Made by a program: the position numbers and the translations under genes. The notes beneath the pieces were generated by a model. The model saw nothing but the letters and a program-made list of their open reading frames with translations. It searched no databases and was not told where the DNA came from. From the NCBI GenBank assembly GCA_947169105.1, contig CAMVOL010000010.1, positions 1 to 64,000 of the forward strand: DNA of 64,000 bases, read 5' to 3'. The DNA is from an uncultured Bacteroidales bacterium. Its GTDB lineage: Bacteria > Bacteroidota > Bacteroidia > Bacteroidales > WCHB1-69. Shown piece after piece: positions 6,980 to 44,247 of this stretch (positions are counted from its first letter, which is position 1; the number at the start of each line of letters is the position of its first letter).

Positions 6980-8797
6980 TTATTTTACGATTTCCTGGAA
7001 TTTGGACTGGTTCTTATATTTCTTGAACTCAGCGTCCTTTTTGGCCTTGGCTTTGTAGGAAGCATCAAGTTTCACTGCCTCGGCGAGGTTGGAATAGACC
7101 TGTGCCTCTTTCTTGGTGCGGGCGGCGAGGACAGCGGCCAGATAGTAGGTCTTGGCGTCCTTCTGGGCAATGCACTCCAACGTGTTCTGGGCGGCAGTGT
7201 AGTTTTTGTCCAGCATCTGGACGAGGGCCATGTTGTAGTCGCAAGTCTTGTTGTTCATGGATTTGGCAGCGCCTGCATAATCACCCGACTGGATCTGGTT
7301 CATAGCGAGGTTGTAGTCCTGACCGACGGGGTTGGTAGTAGCCTTGGCGGCTTCGGCGAACTTCTGCATGGCTTCGGCTTTCTTGCCCTGCAGGAACAGG
7401 CCAACACCCTGATTGTTGAGGATGATGCCGTTGCTCGGGGAGATGGCAGCAGCCTTGTCAAGGTTCTTCATGCCTTCGGTAAGACCGTCTTTGTCACCGT
7501 TTTCAATGTACTTGTTGATTTCGAGGATGGCAGCATTGTTGTAAGCGCGCCAGTCGCCCTCTTCCTTGTCCATAGTCACTTTATAGATAGCCTCTTTCTT
7601 GTTGAGGTCTTTCTCCATGTAGGCGGCATAAAGCTTCTCGTTCACGGAAAGTTTGTCAGGATCCGTTGTCATGTATTCGGCAATCTGCTCGTCGTTGTAC
7701 ATGTTCTTGTTGCAGACCATAGAAACTTCCACGCGGCGGAGCGGAGGAAGGATGATGTCGGCGATGGTGGGATAGATGTCGGTCATATTGCGAATCTTCT
7801 CCTCTTTCATCGCACCGTTGGGCTGTGAACGCACCACATTGAGAATCTGGTTCTTCTCGGCGATGTTGGAAGCCTGAAGGTCTCTTTCAAAACCGCTCCA
7901 GTCCTCACCCGGGGAGGTGACGTCGAACACGATTTCGGGTTTCTGCAAATCTTTGTATTTGATTTTGTTATCCTTCGCATACTGGCGGAGGTATTTGTCG
8001 AACTCGTTGTCGAACCACTTTTTGCCCTGTTCGGCGCGTTTTTGGGAAAGACCCTGATTCAAGCTCTCTTCGCCTTCGGGAGAAGCCCAGCCAGTGATGA
8101 TGATCTTGTCGATGACACGGCCCTCTTTCATAAAGGCGGCGAAGTCGGCGACAGCCTTCTTGGCGGCATCGCTCTTATTGAGCTTGAGGTTCATGTTCAG
8201 ATCTGCCTTGTTGAGGTCAAAATAGATGATAGCGGTGTTGGTGAGGAACTCAGCCTTATAACCGTGCTCGGCATAGAGGAGCTGGGTGCCGTTGCCGGCC
8301 TTTTCCGAAAGTTCCGGATTGATATCCATCAAAGCGGCGGAGTTGCAGATACCTTCACAAAGCATCACATCGGGGAAAGTATGGGAAGCTTTCTTCTTTT
8401 GGGCAGTGGAGGAAGCCACGAGGTTGGCCTCTTCATAACCATCCTTGAACTCGAAAGAACCAGTGGCGGAGAAATTACCACCCTGCTTGTAGTTGATGAC
8501 CGTGCCTTTAGCCTTGGCCTTCTGTCCCTGAAGTTCAATCGGGGCGAGGGCGATGCGCTGTCCGTTGTACTCGATGGTGGGCGTCACCGTCATCGTAGCT
8601 TTCTTCTTCATATATTTTGGAGGAATGGTGCCCTTCACCTGATAAGCCACCTGACCACCCCTGTTTTCGAGGTTCTCATTGTCAAGTTTGATGCTCACTT
8701 CCGGATAACGCGGAACCATTTTTCCGAGGCCGCAGCCCGCAACAAGCAGGCCGACAAAGCATGCCAAAAGAATAACTCTAAAATTTTTCTTCATCAT
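6980..8797 (-). CDS. Lipoprotein with OmpA-like region and TPR repeats
   Basis: Lipobox VGLLVAGCG; OmpA-like IIITGWASPEGEESLNQGLSQKRAEQ; C-terminal TPR-like ILNNQGVGLFLQGKKAEAMQKFAEA. Confidence 0.8.
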   Translation of the reverse strand: MMKKNFRVILLACFVGLLVAGCGLGKMVPRYPEVSIKLDNENLENRGGQVAYQVKGTIPPKYMKKKATMTVTPTIEYNGQRIALAPIELQGQKAKAKGTVINYKQGGNFSATGSFEFKDGYEEANLVASSTAQKKKASHTFPDVMLCEGICNSAALMDINPELSEKAGNGTQLLYAEHGYKAEFLTNTAIIYFDLNKADLNMNLKLNKSDAAKKAVADFAAFMKEGRVIDKIIITGWASPEGEESLNQGLSQKRAEQGKKWFDNEFDKYLRQYAKDNKIKYKDLQKPEIVFDVTSPGEDWSGFERDLQASNIAEKNQILNVVRSQPNGAMKEEKIRNMTDIYPTIADIILPPLRRVEVSMVCNKNMYNDEQIAEYMTTDPDKLSVNEKLYAAYMEKDLNKKEAIYKVTMDKEEGDWRAYNNAAILEINKYIENGDKDGLTEGMKNLDKAAAISPSNGIILNNQGVGLFLQGKKAEAMQKFAEAAKATTNPVGQDYNLAMNQIQSGDYAGAAKSMNNKTCDYNMALVQMLDKNYTAAQNTLECIAQKDAKTYYLAAVLAARTKKEAQVYSNLAEAVKLDASYKAKAKKDAEFKKYKNQSKFQEIVK

Positions 8798-39745: not shown

Positions 39746-42025
39746 TTACTTGATATTCCAGAAATTCTTGTAAAACACGCCATACCACAAGCCGACTCCA
39801 CTGATCCGCAATGCGTGAACTTGAAATGCTCTGATGATAGTGGCAACAAGGGGGAGGCCCAATCGGGAGGACAATCTCTTCTCAAATGTTTGTGCTGCTT
39901 CTCCCTTTTCGTTTAAAATCTCAACAATTTCTTCTATGGACTTTGCAGACAGTTCCTCTGTGCGGTTTTGGATAGACTCATTAATGGCGGACATGGTGAG
40001 GAGCCGATTGTGCACACGGCGACTTGTCTTACCACCGGGACCCAATGCTGCTGTTACTGGTGTTCCCACGCAAATGCAGAGCGTTTCCTCTTTGATTTCG
40101 GGGATGTTTGCATCAAACAGTTCTTCAACCAGCTGATCGTGGTACTTTTTGTCAGTGATTTCCAGCCGTTCCACTACACTCCCTCTATCCTGGCCCAGAA
40201 AATAATTCTTCAATGCGGTTGTCCCGACTTTAAAACTATGACTGAACGTCTTTTTTTGATCTTGGAATAAAGTGACTTCAGTGGAGCCCCCTCCCATATC
40301 AATTAACAGTATATTGCGCACGTTTTTGATTTCACCACTATTATCCGCGCACAAATACCCCCAAAGCGTGCATTCTGCCTCCTGATTTTTAGACAATACA
40401 CATACCTCCAGACCTGTTTCCGATTTGATCAGATCCATGATTTCCTGCCGGTTTGTGGCATTGCGGTACGCAGCGGAAGCAACACAATGGACGACATCCA
40501 CCCCGTTATTTTTGACTTCGCGCGCCGCCCGTCTTATGGTAGGCATCACCTTTTTCTTGAAATAGGCCATATTCATCACATTGTCCTTGTCCAAGCCATT
40601 CCCTGTTTCCGTCTTTACTGCTTGCGGAATAAAGTGGTCAAAACTGAAACTTTTACGGATTGTCTCATTATCAACTTTGGGGATCAGCCATTTGACTGCT
40701 TTTGTAGATAACTCTATCACAGCTCTTTTGGGGTCTTCACGGTTGGGTGACAGCCAGTTTTCGCCAGTTGTGCTATCGCTCTCAATCACATCCACAGCAT
40801 TCAGATTGAGTGACTTGTTCTGGTAGCGGATATGGCTTCCGAATGTTTGCGGCTGAGAACATTGTTCCGAATTATCGTCAAGCTGTTCGGACAACGACTC
40901 GTCCTTGTCCATCCGTTCGTCATAAGAGTCCAGCTTCCGGGAAATTTTCTTGTTGTTTTTTTCTTGCTCATATTCTGAAAGCCACTCGAGGAATGAAGTG
41001 CCGATTTCATCGTCCGAAGCGTGGTATCTGTCAAAAAGCACGTCAAATTCAAAGCTTTTCAATGCCCGATTCTGTTTTGGCTTTTTCTTTAAAGTCGAGA
41101 CTCCCAACACAATCAGGTTCTTTGAACGGACAAGCCATATTCCATAAAACCTATATATGTCCGTATCAATAGACATATAGATTTTTTTCTCATCCTTACT
41201 TCTGCGAAAATTGCAAAAACGGGGTTTCGCAGAATTCATATTCGACCAATATTCATCTCCAATTTTTGTCAAATTTGCACGGATATATCCGATGTGATCG
41301 GCAAAGCAGATCCGTTTCGCAAAATTGACGACCTCGTTCCAAGTGGGCCTTCTGGCCGGATCTTCTGCCAACAACCTTTCCCGAAGATAGCACTGGTCGC
41401 TCTCCGACAAAGTATATATTGTCGAGGATTCAAACACCCATTCTATGATTTTGCCAAAAGAATAGATATCTGCTTGATAGGGGAAGCCCCCTTTAACTTT
41501 TGCAAATTTCTCGGGTGCGGCAAATTCCGGGTCAAAAGGAGACAAGCTGTCTCCCTTTCCGAGCGTTTTTGCGATGTCTGCCAGCCCGAAATTCATCAGA
41601 TGAAATCCATAGTAGCTGTCAATCAGAATGTTGTCAGGGGTCAGATTGCCATGCGATATGACATTTTTCGTATGCAAGGCACACAGGCAGTCGGCTACAG
41701 CAACCAGCCCCGATAATAATATGTTGTGGTTGTCAGAGCCATAGTCCTTCAAGGTATAATGTCCGATATACTCGTACACAATTGCGTAGGTGTCTTCCTC
41801 CTCATCATATCCATACTGCACAATTTGGGGGAGCAACGGATGAACCGCCTTTTGCAGATGCCGGAGCTTGTCCGACAAGATTTTCGATTTCTGTGAATCC
41901 TTTGGGATATCCAAGATCCACTTTGCCAGGAAGAGAGTCCCGTCCTCGTCTTTTACAACTCCAGTTTGGAAATAATCATTTTTGGTGATTTCGCTTTTGT
42001 CGTATTGAAATTTATTGAACAACAT
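39746..42025 (-). CDS. Hanks-type pseudokinase fused to a Ppx/GppA-like phosphatase domain
   Basis: Kinase-fold motifs LFLAKWIL, HGNLTPDNILI, NFGLAD, FAAPEKF, QADIYSFGKI; C-terminal ASAAYRNATNRQEIMDLIKSETGLEVCVLSKNQEAECTLWGYL and NILLIDMGGGSTEVTLF. Confidence 0.85.
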   Translation of the reverse strand: MLFNKFQYDKSEITKNDYFQTGVVKDEDGTLFLAKWILDIPKDSQKSKILSDKLRHLQKAVHPLLPQIVQYGYDEEEDTYAIVYEYIGHYTLKDYGSDNHNILLSGLVAVADCLCALHTKNVISHGNLTPDNILIDSYYGFHLMNFGLADIAKTLGKGDSLSPFDPEFAAPEKFAKVKGGFPYQADIYSFGKIIEWVFESSTIYTLSESDQCYLRERLLAEDPARRPTWNEVVNFAKRICFADHIGYIRANLTKIGDEYWSNMNSAKPRFCNFRRSKDEKKIYMSIDTDIYRFYGIWLVRSKNLIVLGVSTLKKKPKQNRALKSFEFDVLFDRYHASDDEIGTSFLEWLSEYEQEKNNKKISRKLDSYDERMDKDESLSEQLDDNSEQCSQPQTFGSHIRYQNKSLNLNAVDVIESDSTTGENWLSPNREDPKRAVIELSTKAVKWLIPKVDNETIRKSFSFDHFIPQAVKTETGNGLDKDNVMNMAYFKKKVMPTIRRAAREVKNNGVDVVHCVASAAYRNATNRQEIMDLIKSETGLEVCVLSKNQEAECTLWGYLCADNSGEIKNVRNILLIDMGGGSTEVTLFQDQKKTFSHSFKVGTTALKNYFLGQDRGSVVERLEITDKKYHDQLVEELFDANIPEIKEETLCICVGTPVTAALGPGGKTSRRVHNRLLTMSAINESIQNRTEELSAKSIEEIVEILNEKGEAAQTFEKRLSSRLGLPLVATIIRAFQVHALRISGVGLWYGVFYKNFWNIK

Positions 42026-42082: not shown

Positions 42083-42111
42083 AAAGGTAGGAGGAGTTTC
42101 CCCCTACCTTT
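42083..42111. promoter_or_regulatory. Hairpin between the 32-aa ORF and the pseudokinase gene
   Basis: AAAGGTAGG-aggagtttcccc-CCTACCTTT. Confidence 0.6.
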
Positions 42112-42122
42112 GGATTAGAGTG

Positions 42123-42221
42123 TTACCTCTTGGGCGGGTTGTTGGTTCGGCCGCCTCCTGACGGATGGTTTGTGCCGTTTTTGGTGGGCCAACCTCCTTT
42201 CCCTTTTGATTTCGTTACCAT
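42123..42221 (-). CDS. Small ORF (32 aa) MVTKSKGKGGWPTKNGTNHPSGGGRTNNPPKR
   Basis: ATG at 42221, TAA at 42123-42125; perfect Shine-Dalgarno AAAGGAGGT 8 nt upstream; 60 nt downstream of a -7 promoter element. Not in the supplied ORF track, whose shortest entries are about 60 aa. Confidence 0.6.
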   Translation of the reverse strand: MVTKSKGKGGWPTKNGTNHPSGGGRTNNPPKR

Positions 42222-42281
42222 AAAAAATACCTCCTTTCAATTGGTGTTTTTTTTGTTTTTTTTCTTTCATTGTTTATGCAG

Positions 42282-42289
42282 CAAAAATA
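42282..42289 (-). promoter_or_regulatory. -7 element TATTTTTG for the small ORF / pseudokinase unit
   Basis: Forward CAAAAATA; no TTTG at the expected -33 position. Confidence 0.6.
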
Positions 42290-42430: not shown

Positions 42431-42438
42431 ATAAAACA

Positions 42439-42474
42439 GAAACGGCATCCGTTTCGTGCCACGGATGCCGTTTC
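42439..42474 (-). terminator. Terminator hairpin downstream of the LytTR regulator
   Basis: GAAACGGCATCCG-tttcgtgcca-CGGATGCCGTTTC, 13-bp perfect stem; on the minus strand followed by TGTTTTATTTC. Confidence 0.75.
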
Positions 42475-42509
42475 TATATTGTTTTCGGAAAAAATTTGAA
42501 AAAAAGGCG

Positions 42510-43265
42510 CTATTTCAGATTTTTCCTATAATTTTCAGACACAGGAATGGACTTCTGGAAGTCGCGTTTTAACTGACCTCTTTCATCCTTGAGACAGCCA
42601 CGCACGACCACCTCATCCTTTGACTCCGAAACGATGCGGTTCTTATTGACCATATAGGATTTATGAACACGTCTGAACAGGTTGTTGTATTGTACGTTCC
42701 ATCCCTCGATATCGGCAAAAGGAGTACGCGGGAGGGTAATGGGTTCATCCTCTGTAAAATAAATCATTTTGTCATTGCCCACATCCTTCTCTGCACTAAT
42801 CAGTACGATATTATTGACATTGATGGTTTTATGTAAGCCATCGGCTGTCTTTACTTTCATTTCCCCATTGCCCTTTTTCAACCGGGAGACATTTTCGCAA
42901 AAACGGAGAATCATCTTCCTGAATTTTTCCGGATCTGTCACCAACTCCTTGGGCATCGGTTGCGAGATTCCCGTCTTTTCTTCGAGCTCCACTATCTTAT
43001 TTAAATGTTTATCCGCAAAACTGCTGGTGAAAAGCACGGGCTTGCAAACCTCTTCTGCAATCAGCAACCCCGCCTTTGGAGAATCCATCTCAATATCCAA
43101 AATCAGGGCATCAATGTTCCGATCCTTCTCATACTGGTCAAAGAAATTATCATACGATGTGGCAGTGAACGCCACCTCTACGCAAGGTATTTCCTGTAAT
43201 AACTGACTAAATCTGTTCAATATCCGCAGGGTGTCGTCCGCAAGGGCAATACGTATCTTATTCAT
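42510..43265 (-). CDS. LytTR-type response regulator (REC + LytTR)
   Basis: IRIALADDTLRILNRFSQLL..IDALILDIEM; LytTR FRRVHKSYMVNKNRIV. Confidence 0.9.
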   Translation of the reverse strand: MNKIRIALADDTLRILNRFSQLLQEIPCVEVAFTATSYDNFFDQYEKDRNIDALILDIEMDSPKAGLLIAEEVCKPVLFTSSFADKHLNKIVELEEKTGISQPMPKELVTDPEKFRKMILRFCENVSRLKKGNGEMKVKTADGLHKTINVNNIVLISAEKDVGNDKMIYFTEDEPITLPRTPFADIEGWNVQYNNLFRRVHKSYMVNKNRIVSESKDEVVVRGCLKDERGQLKRDFQKSIPVSENYRKNLK

Positions 43266-44247
43266 TGTCTATGAACTTTATTCGTAATATGGAATTGTAA
43301 TAAGGTTCAGTAATTTCGGATTTCAAGTCGTACTTAAACCCGCTTGCCCGTAAGCGATATTTCAGGTTTTCAAGCCCTTTCCCATGTTCTGAATTATCTA
43401 CTACAGTCTTTTTCGCCAACTTGTTTGTCATAGCAAACACAAGTTCATCATTCTGGAGTGAGATGTCAATTTTCAAGAAATCCGAAACACTCTTGTCTCC
43501 ATAACGGATAGCGTTTTCGAGCAAGTTAAGTGTAATTCCCGTCGGTAATGCGGGAGCATAATAATAATAGTTGCTCTGATCAATATTTTCCTCATTTATC
43601 AAATAATGATCCTGTGGCACACTATAGGCTTTCAGGAATTTTTTGAGCAACTCAATCTCCTGCCATAACGGGATTTGGGGATGATAAATCAGGTCTTCCA
43701 AAACATCGAAATAGCAACTCAGTTCATTTTCTATCTCTTCAATCTCTTCGGATGCATCACCGCTTACACTCAACGAGATATCATTTCGTATCTCATTTAA
43801 ATGCAGTTGTTTGTCAATCAAAAAATTGCGGATATTATGCCGCAAAAAATGCTGGTCGGCAGTAGTGGTTATAAGGACTGCATCCTCTTGCACAACTTTT
43901 TCAAGAACCGCCTTAATCTGTTCAAGTTCCGCATTCCGCGAGGAACTCAAGGCCGTCTGCTCCAAATACTGGTCAAGCAGCTTTCGTGCGTGCATATTCA
44001 TTTCCTTGCTTTTCGCCAATTCCACAACAAGATACTCATTTTCCTTCTGCAACTTACTGATAATCCCCATCTTGTCGTTATTTGCACTATCCAGATCCAA
44101 AAGTAAAGGATCTTTTTTTTGTTCTTCATTCGGGGAATGCTCGTTCTCCGGATGTTCTGGGGATTCATTGTCTTCATCCTTACCAAAAAGCCATCCGATT
44201 AAACTGAATAACAAGAAAACTCCTACAATAATAAGAAATGTAATCAT
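43258..44247 (-). CDS. LytS-like sensor histidine kinase with one N-terminal TM and coiled coil
   Basis: ITFLIIVGVFLLFSLIGWLFG; QHFLRHNIRNFL; ITLNLLENAIRYGD; HGKGLENLKYRLR. Overlaps the regulator by 8 bp. Confidence 0.8.
   Translation of the reverse strand: MITFLIIVGVFLLFSLIGWLFGKDEDNESPEHPENEHSPNEEQKKDPLLLDLDSANNDKMGIISKLQKENEYLVVELAKSKEMNMHARKLLDQYLEQTALSSSRNAELEQIKAVLEKVVQEDAVLITTTADQHFLRHNIRNFLIDKQLHLNEIRNDISLSVSGDASEEIEEIENELSCYFDVLEDLIYHPQIPLWQEIELLKKFLKAYSVPQDHYLINEENIDQSNYYYYAPALPTGITLNLLENAIRYGDKSVSDFLKIDISLQNDELVFAMTNKLAKKTVVDNSEHGKGLENLKYRLRASGFKYDLKSEITEPYYNSILRIKFIDNE

Follow-up and report, generated by a model that had tools for sequence, protein, structure and literature searches.

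Several described systems share features with a locus in the window (the whole stretch of 64,000 nucleotides analysed here, from an uncultured Bacteroidales bacterium), where a basic mini-protein of 32 residues is encoded beside a pseudokinase fused to a Ppx/GppA domain. As in prokaryotic viperin (pVip) loci, members of the mini-protein's family adjoin viperin or NERD genes, and the motif of a second, acidic family is once fused to viperin; unlike pVip loci, the window contains neither viperin nor NERD (no viperin gene was found in its genome), and the mini-protein is absent from PADLOC output for pVip/NERD systems. We know of no description of it from pVip work. The kinase part of the neighbouring protein resembles MkoA of Mokosh, and a full MkoA lies near another family member (L059), but the window protein ends in Ppx/GppA rather than a helicase and its kinase is degenerate. 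With its small peptide gene next to genes for a sensor kinase and a LytTR protein, the locus also recalls the AgrD/ComC quorum systems (GHKL kinase, LytTR regulator); here, however, the 32 residues hold no leader or hydrophobic segment, and the core is constant rather than variable. No exporter was seen near the mini-gene. In Proteobacteria, where the small gene stands beside a protein of 350-415 aa predicted to be helical, the arrangement is reminiscent of RRNPP and AimR-AimP systems, although the peptide has no export signal and the putative partner no fold match.

The mini-protein is also small, glycine-rich and very hydrophilic, like hydrophilins and SMP- or LEA-like proteins: its glycine content of 22% exceeds the 6% that defines hydrophilins, its GRAVY of -1.69 corresponds to a hydrophilicity above the defining value of 1, and two members have a sub-threshold SMP-like N-terminus. 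Hydrophilins are further marked by induction under water stress and by protection of enzymes. What sets the mini-protein's family apart from these proteins is a strictly conserved 18-residue core, a conflict-locus context and the pairing with an acidic mini-protein. Judged by sequence comparison, the novelty would lie in two families of proteins and in the way they are paired, for which nothing tested gave a match; the mechanism is not part of that claim. If this is true, antiviral loci hold a layer of tiny proteins missed by gene callers, which turn up across defence systems and phyla and in viral contigs as well. A single core, conserved next to genes of the viperin, Mokosh-like, NERD, restriction and RtcR types, would then offer a way to approach what these systems have in common.

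The mini-gene and its surroundings in the window

The locus comprises the following features.

39746-42025, minus strand: pseudokinase-Ppx/GppA fusion with HGN and NFG motifs; MkoA-like in its kinase part (E 1e-22)
42083-42111, minus strand: perfect 13-bp hairpin just 3' of the mini-gene (-19.6 kcal/mol, z -5.3)
42123-42221, minus strand: 32-aa mini-protein MVTKSKGKGGWPTKNGTNHPSGGGRTNNPPKR with stop codon, identified by relatives and purifying selection
42229-42237, minus strand: Shine-Dalgarno AAAGGAGGT, 7 nt before the ATG
42282-42289, minus strand: TATTTTTG, candidate Bacteroidota -7 promoter element, from sequence and consensus
42436-42477, minus strand: strong terminator-like hairpin between response regulator and mini-gene
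42510-43265, minus strand: response regulator carrying a LytTR domain, scored weakly by Pfam
43258-44247, minus strand: putative LytS-like sensor kinase (GHKL E 0.04; one N-terminal membrane segment predicted by eye)

The open reading frame runs on the minus strand from an ATG through 32 codons to a TAA at 42123, with the sequence, frame, start and stop given in a preliminary description of this DNA. That it is a real gene, as proposed there, is virtually certain. Its closest relative comes from the same genus (G012; 82% identity over 28 residues, E 1e-11, 99 relatives searched), and start, stop and coding pattern are conserved in relatives. The substitution check that the description had called for gave pN/pS of about 0.12 in frame versus 2.3 in the +1 frame (25 pairs, several lineages). 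Between the window and its nearest relative the ratio is 0.15, with synonymous change (0.91) near saturation and non-synonymous change at 0.14. At fixed core positions each of the six serine codons and each of the six arginine codons occurs, and selection therefore acts on the protein. Because the loci were collected through similarity at the protein level, part of the core's conservation is built into these comparisons; the synonymous saturation is not. The reading frame is under strong purifying selection at the protein level.

The reported Shine-Dalgarno is present, at 42237-42229, with a spacer (ATTTTTT) of 7 nt instead of the 8 given previously. It had been presented as notable, but AAAGGAGGT-N4-9-ATG has 8 matches in the genome versus 6 for the reversed control pattern, and plausible genes follow only a few of these matches; the site is real, yet alone not above chance, and is the weakest part of the case. 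The same AAAGGAGGT stands upstream of further members (G012, L058, L061, L043, L054 and L096). Its reported repeat inside codons 8-10 exists but is unconserved (the closest relative reads AAAGGCGGC), and we rejected it as a meaningful feature. The Bacteroidota -7 consensus is TAnnTTTG, and the -7-like TATTTTTG lies 60 nt upstream of the mini-gene at 42289-42282, as described. The terminator-like hairpin at 42436-42477 suggests that the mini-gene may have its own transcript start, and the hairpins on both sides would fit a short, separate transcript. The downstream hairpin (42083-42111) has no T run after it, and its CUCCUCC arm might in addition base-pair with the Shine-Dalgarno.

The mini-protein has a calculated charge of +6.6 and is probably intrinsically disordered. 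No acidic partner was found within the window. The next gene, whose start at 42025 lies 97 nt away (previously about 98), was correctly described as a pseudokinase-Ppx: HGN and NFG replace HRD and DFG, leaving it without the catalytic Asp, and the MkoA profile (PADLOC) matches the kinase part only. The combination of pseudokinase and Ppx/GppA is apparently an unusual domain swap. On the other side, homologues of the response regulator adjoin family members with viperin in other Bacteroidota, and a kinase/LytTR pair like that of the window recurs in Bacteroidota at L058, L061, L062, L071 and L072 and, by sequence, at L136 and L138.

Two mini-protein families and their neighbours

Relatives of the window protein share the core GWPS[TK]TGNPSGGGRDNNPPK, which in the family alignment (A4) reads G-W-P-[ST]-x-[TN]-G-x-P-S-G-[GK]-G-R-[DGTN]-N-N-P-P with variable ends. 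The family spans phyla, occurring in Bacteroidota, Proteobacteria, Campylobacterota, archaeal and Chloroflexota MAGs, plasmids and viral contigs. It was found at 56 GTDB loci (Moraxellaceae, Vibrionaceae, Pseudomonadaceae, Campylobacterota, Bacteroidota, Chloroflexota and archaeal MAGs), in 9 viral contigs and in 20 of 393 Bacteroidales genomes, and relatives on Acinetobacter and Photobacterium plasmids lie in stretches with no listed gene. Weaker genome matches (L002, L004, L005, L007-L019) were rejected as members. No match was found in Pfam, NCBIfam or PHROGs profiles, no match above gathering score in Rfam, no convincing match in the PDB (the sole match was a 27-residue chain, E 0.73), and no paper in a full-text search of an open-access collection for the motif strings. 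The family is apparently undescribed.

In a few members the motif is part of a longer frame. At L033 (8091-8519, plus strand) a frame of 143 aa that directly follows a free-standing copy (AGWPSKTGNPSGSGRYNNV) has the motif as its C-terminal tail, and in Pseudomonadaceae (L070, L073, near 7863-8075, plus strand) the motif is C-terminal in a protein of 67 aa whose N-terminus is SMP (seed maturation protein)-like. That N-terminus scores E 0.0014 in L070, below the Pfam cut-off; the SMP/LEA profiles of Pfam match L070/L073 weakly there and do not match the window protein. On a Phycisphaeraceae MAG contig (L038, 6537-8654, plus strand) the motif lies inside a long open frame, of high GC and uncertain as a frame.

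Listing small reading frames with Shine-Dalgarno sites near members brought up a second, acidic mini-protein, DNHANQLNPNNDAYWxSRG, which is apparently undescribed as well. It stands beside the basic family at L066/L025 (G012), L052, L058, L062, L138, L146, L079, L080 and L026, and at many loci lies about 100-500 nt from it, the distances being about 85-470 nt in G012, L052, L058, L062, L061, G086, G536, G508, G623, Vibrio ezurae and Crocinitomix; the partner in Acinetobacter is a basic QLNPNH variant, not an acidic protein. Among the 393 Bacteroidales genomes, 10 carry the acidic family, and 6 of these also carry the basic one, against an expected overlap of 0.5 (Fisher p 1.5e-6, or 1.6e-4 with one genus collapsed). 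In G654 (L183 from 5725, the same as L104) the acidic motif MKNSSYDYFQEELDNHANQLNQ is the N-terminus of viperin itself. On viral contigs L091 and L092 an unrelated acidic frame (calculated charge -7.5 and -5.4) overlaps the basic one by ATGA and is translationally coupled to it. The acidic family was also seen on plasmids of Vibrio, Treponema, Thioclava, Cereibacter and Pseudomonas (L157-L162) and in viral contigs (L173-L178). In G726 (L180, 5307-5576) an RtcR-like gene and a glycosyltransferase gene flank two mini-genes, one for a basic GNRGKQLNPN protein and one for an acidic protein, and in G647 the window's family fills the equivalent slot, the RtcR assignment being by PADLOC in G647 and by likeness of sequence in G726. 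A sigma-54-like site (TGGCACGGGTATTGA) before the L180 mini-genes is suggestive, but it was set aside as not above the 95% level of shuffles.

Conflict genes recur around the basic family. Prokaryotic viperin (NF038283) adjoins members in L057, L058, L061, L062 and L097, and in G587 viperin is 220 nt from a member. Of the 393 genomes, 8 have viperin, and 4 of the 8 have one or both mini-proteins near it or fused to it (p 6e-4; 3 of 7 with one genus collapsed, p 4e-3), p-values that are at genome level and from few genomes. In L059 (Bacteroidales), a kinase N-domain related to that of the window (34% identity, E 4e-58) is fused to a helicase about 1 kb from a member, and the fusion scores as MkoA of Mokosh (PADLOC, E 1e-130). 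PADLOC further assigned a viperin-associated NERD nuclease beside the G012 copy (E 7e-23; no kinase there), type IIG restriction beside L133, type I restriction and a McrB-like ATPase in Psychrobacter, and an RtcR-type CARF-AAA-HTH protein beside L135 (G647). Because some copies sit by groEL, tsf/rpsB, ileS or glyA, the link to defence is frequent, not universal, among the loci inspected. We consider it very probable that this is a new family tied to conflict loci. By sequence, small DnaJ-domain-like proteins lie near members in three Bacteroidales genomes (L133, L137, L026).

Possible roles of the mini-proteins

The preliminary description had proposed that the mini-protein is a small regulator, ligand or substrate of the adjacent enzyme; on this reading the kinase domain would bind or modify the peptide to control the phosphatase. 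The shared strand and 97-nt spacing are consistent with this, as is the related kinase N-domain near the L059 member, but the proposal does not hold in general: the same-genus copy (G012) has a NERD-type nuclease and no kinase beside it, most copies lack a kinase neighbour (other genes stand at more than 60 loci), the co-occurrence check suggested earlier found in G442 the kinase without the peptide, and the window kinase lacks its catalytic Asp. A dedicated partner of the kinase-Ppx protein is thus very unlikely. A regulatory leader frame or RNA element, whose translation would control the downstream gene, is more improbable still; the short frame, its strong Shine-Dalgarno and the stable hairpin ahead of the kinase gene would suit such a role, but selection acts at the protein level, Rfam gave no match above gathering score, and for many members the next gene is convergent, which leaves nothing downstream on their strand. 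A general stress protein of the hydrophilin or LEA-like kind, without a particular part in defence and present in islands through mobile DNA, would accord with the composition of the window protein, the sub-threshold SMP-like N-terminus of two Pseudomonadaceae members and the housekeeping neighbours in some genomes. We find this doubtful, given that a nearly fixed 18-residue core would be unusual if hydrophilicity were all that is selected, and that both the acidic family and viperin pair with it non-randomly.

It is also rather unlikely that the mini-protein serves inside the cell as the peptide ligand, or as the antitoxin, of a regulator encoded next to it (RRNPP-like or toxin-antitoxin-like), the regulator being the kinase/LytTR pair in Bacteroidota and a rapidly diverging helical protein of 350-415 aa in Proteobacteria. 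Such a role would fit the kinase and response regulator that adjoin the mini-gene in the window, L058, L071, L136 and L138, and a convergent gene of 340-416 aa that comes right after it in Psychrobacter, Acinetobacter, Vibrio and Photobacterium. On plasmids of Pseudomonas, Thioclava and Cereibacter and in viral contigs, such a gene comes after the acidic-family genes as well (unclassified convergent genes of 350-415 aa stand at L020, L034-L036, L041-L050, L079 and L085-L088, and at L159-L162, L173 and L175). Yet these neighbours are mostly unalignable while the core is constant (exceptions being Psychrobacter-Acinetobacter, E 3e-6, two Pseudomonas proteins, and L173-L175), and many loci have no such neighbour. 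RRNPP receptors combine an HTH with a TPR fold; for the convergent proteins AlphaFold gave low-confidence, all-helical models (pLDDT 61.6 for Moraxellaceae, 54.8 for Vibrio), and Foldseek found no match in the PDB for the Moraxellaceae and Vibrio models. An HTH-like 'W..G...PS' motif common to the convergent proteins was seen by eye and is unproven.

We give an even chance to the reading in which conflict loci carry the disordered basic mini-protein as a portable accessory, frequently together with an acidic partner. Such a protein would travel as a small self-contained cassette in conflict or antiviral loci. The strong Shine-Dalgarno and the candidate promoter of its own suggest that it may be made in quantity, and the lack of a signal or membrane segment that it is cytoplasmic, where it could act in trans via its conserved core. 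Since the core is constant while the neighbours change, the target would rather be a common cell component (ribosome, RNA, chaperone) or a partner mini-protein than an adjacent enzyme. A joint action of the basic and acidic types is suggested by their opposite charges, their arrangement in tandem and the translational coupling; the presence of only the basic type in the window counts against an obligatory pair.

Our working mechanism, which we think unlikely in this exact form, is that the two disordered proteins would be induced by infection or stress along with the locus, associate with one another as well as with RNA, ribosomes or a chaperone, and so assist or restrain the neighbouring effector. 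We also propose, tentatively and at well under even confidence, that these proteins represent a new class in immune loci that spans phyla: interchangeable, oppositely charged disordered mini-proteins, paired, acting on a universal target and present in viral contigs too. Its pairs would join a basic type (WPSTTG/GRDNNPP or GNRGKQLNPN) with the acidic DNHANQLNPNN under regulators that sense infection or RNA damage (HK/LytTR, RtcR-type CARF), and would aid diverse antiviral effectors. Both families are short enough for direct synthesis and testing.
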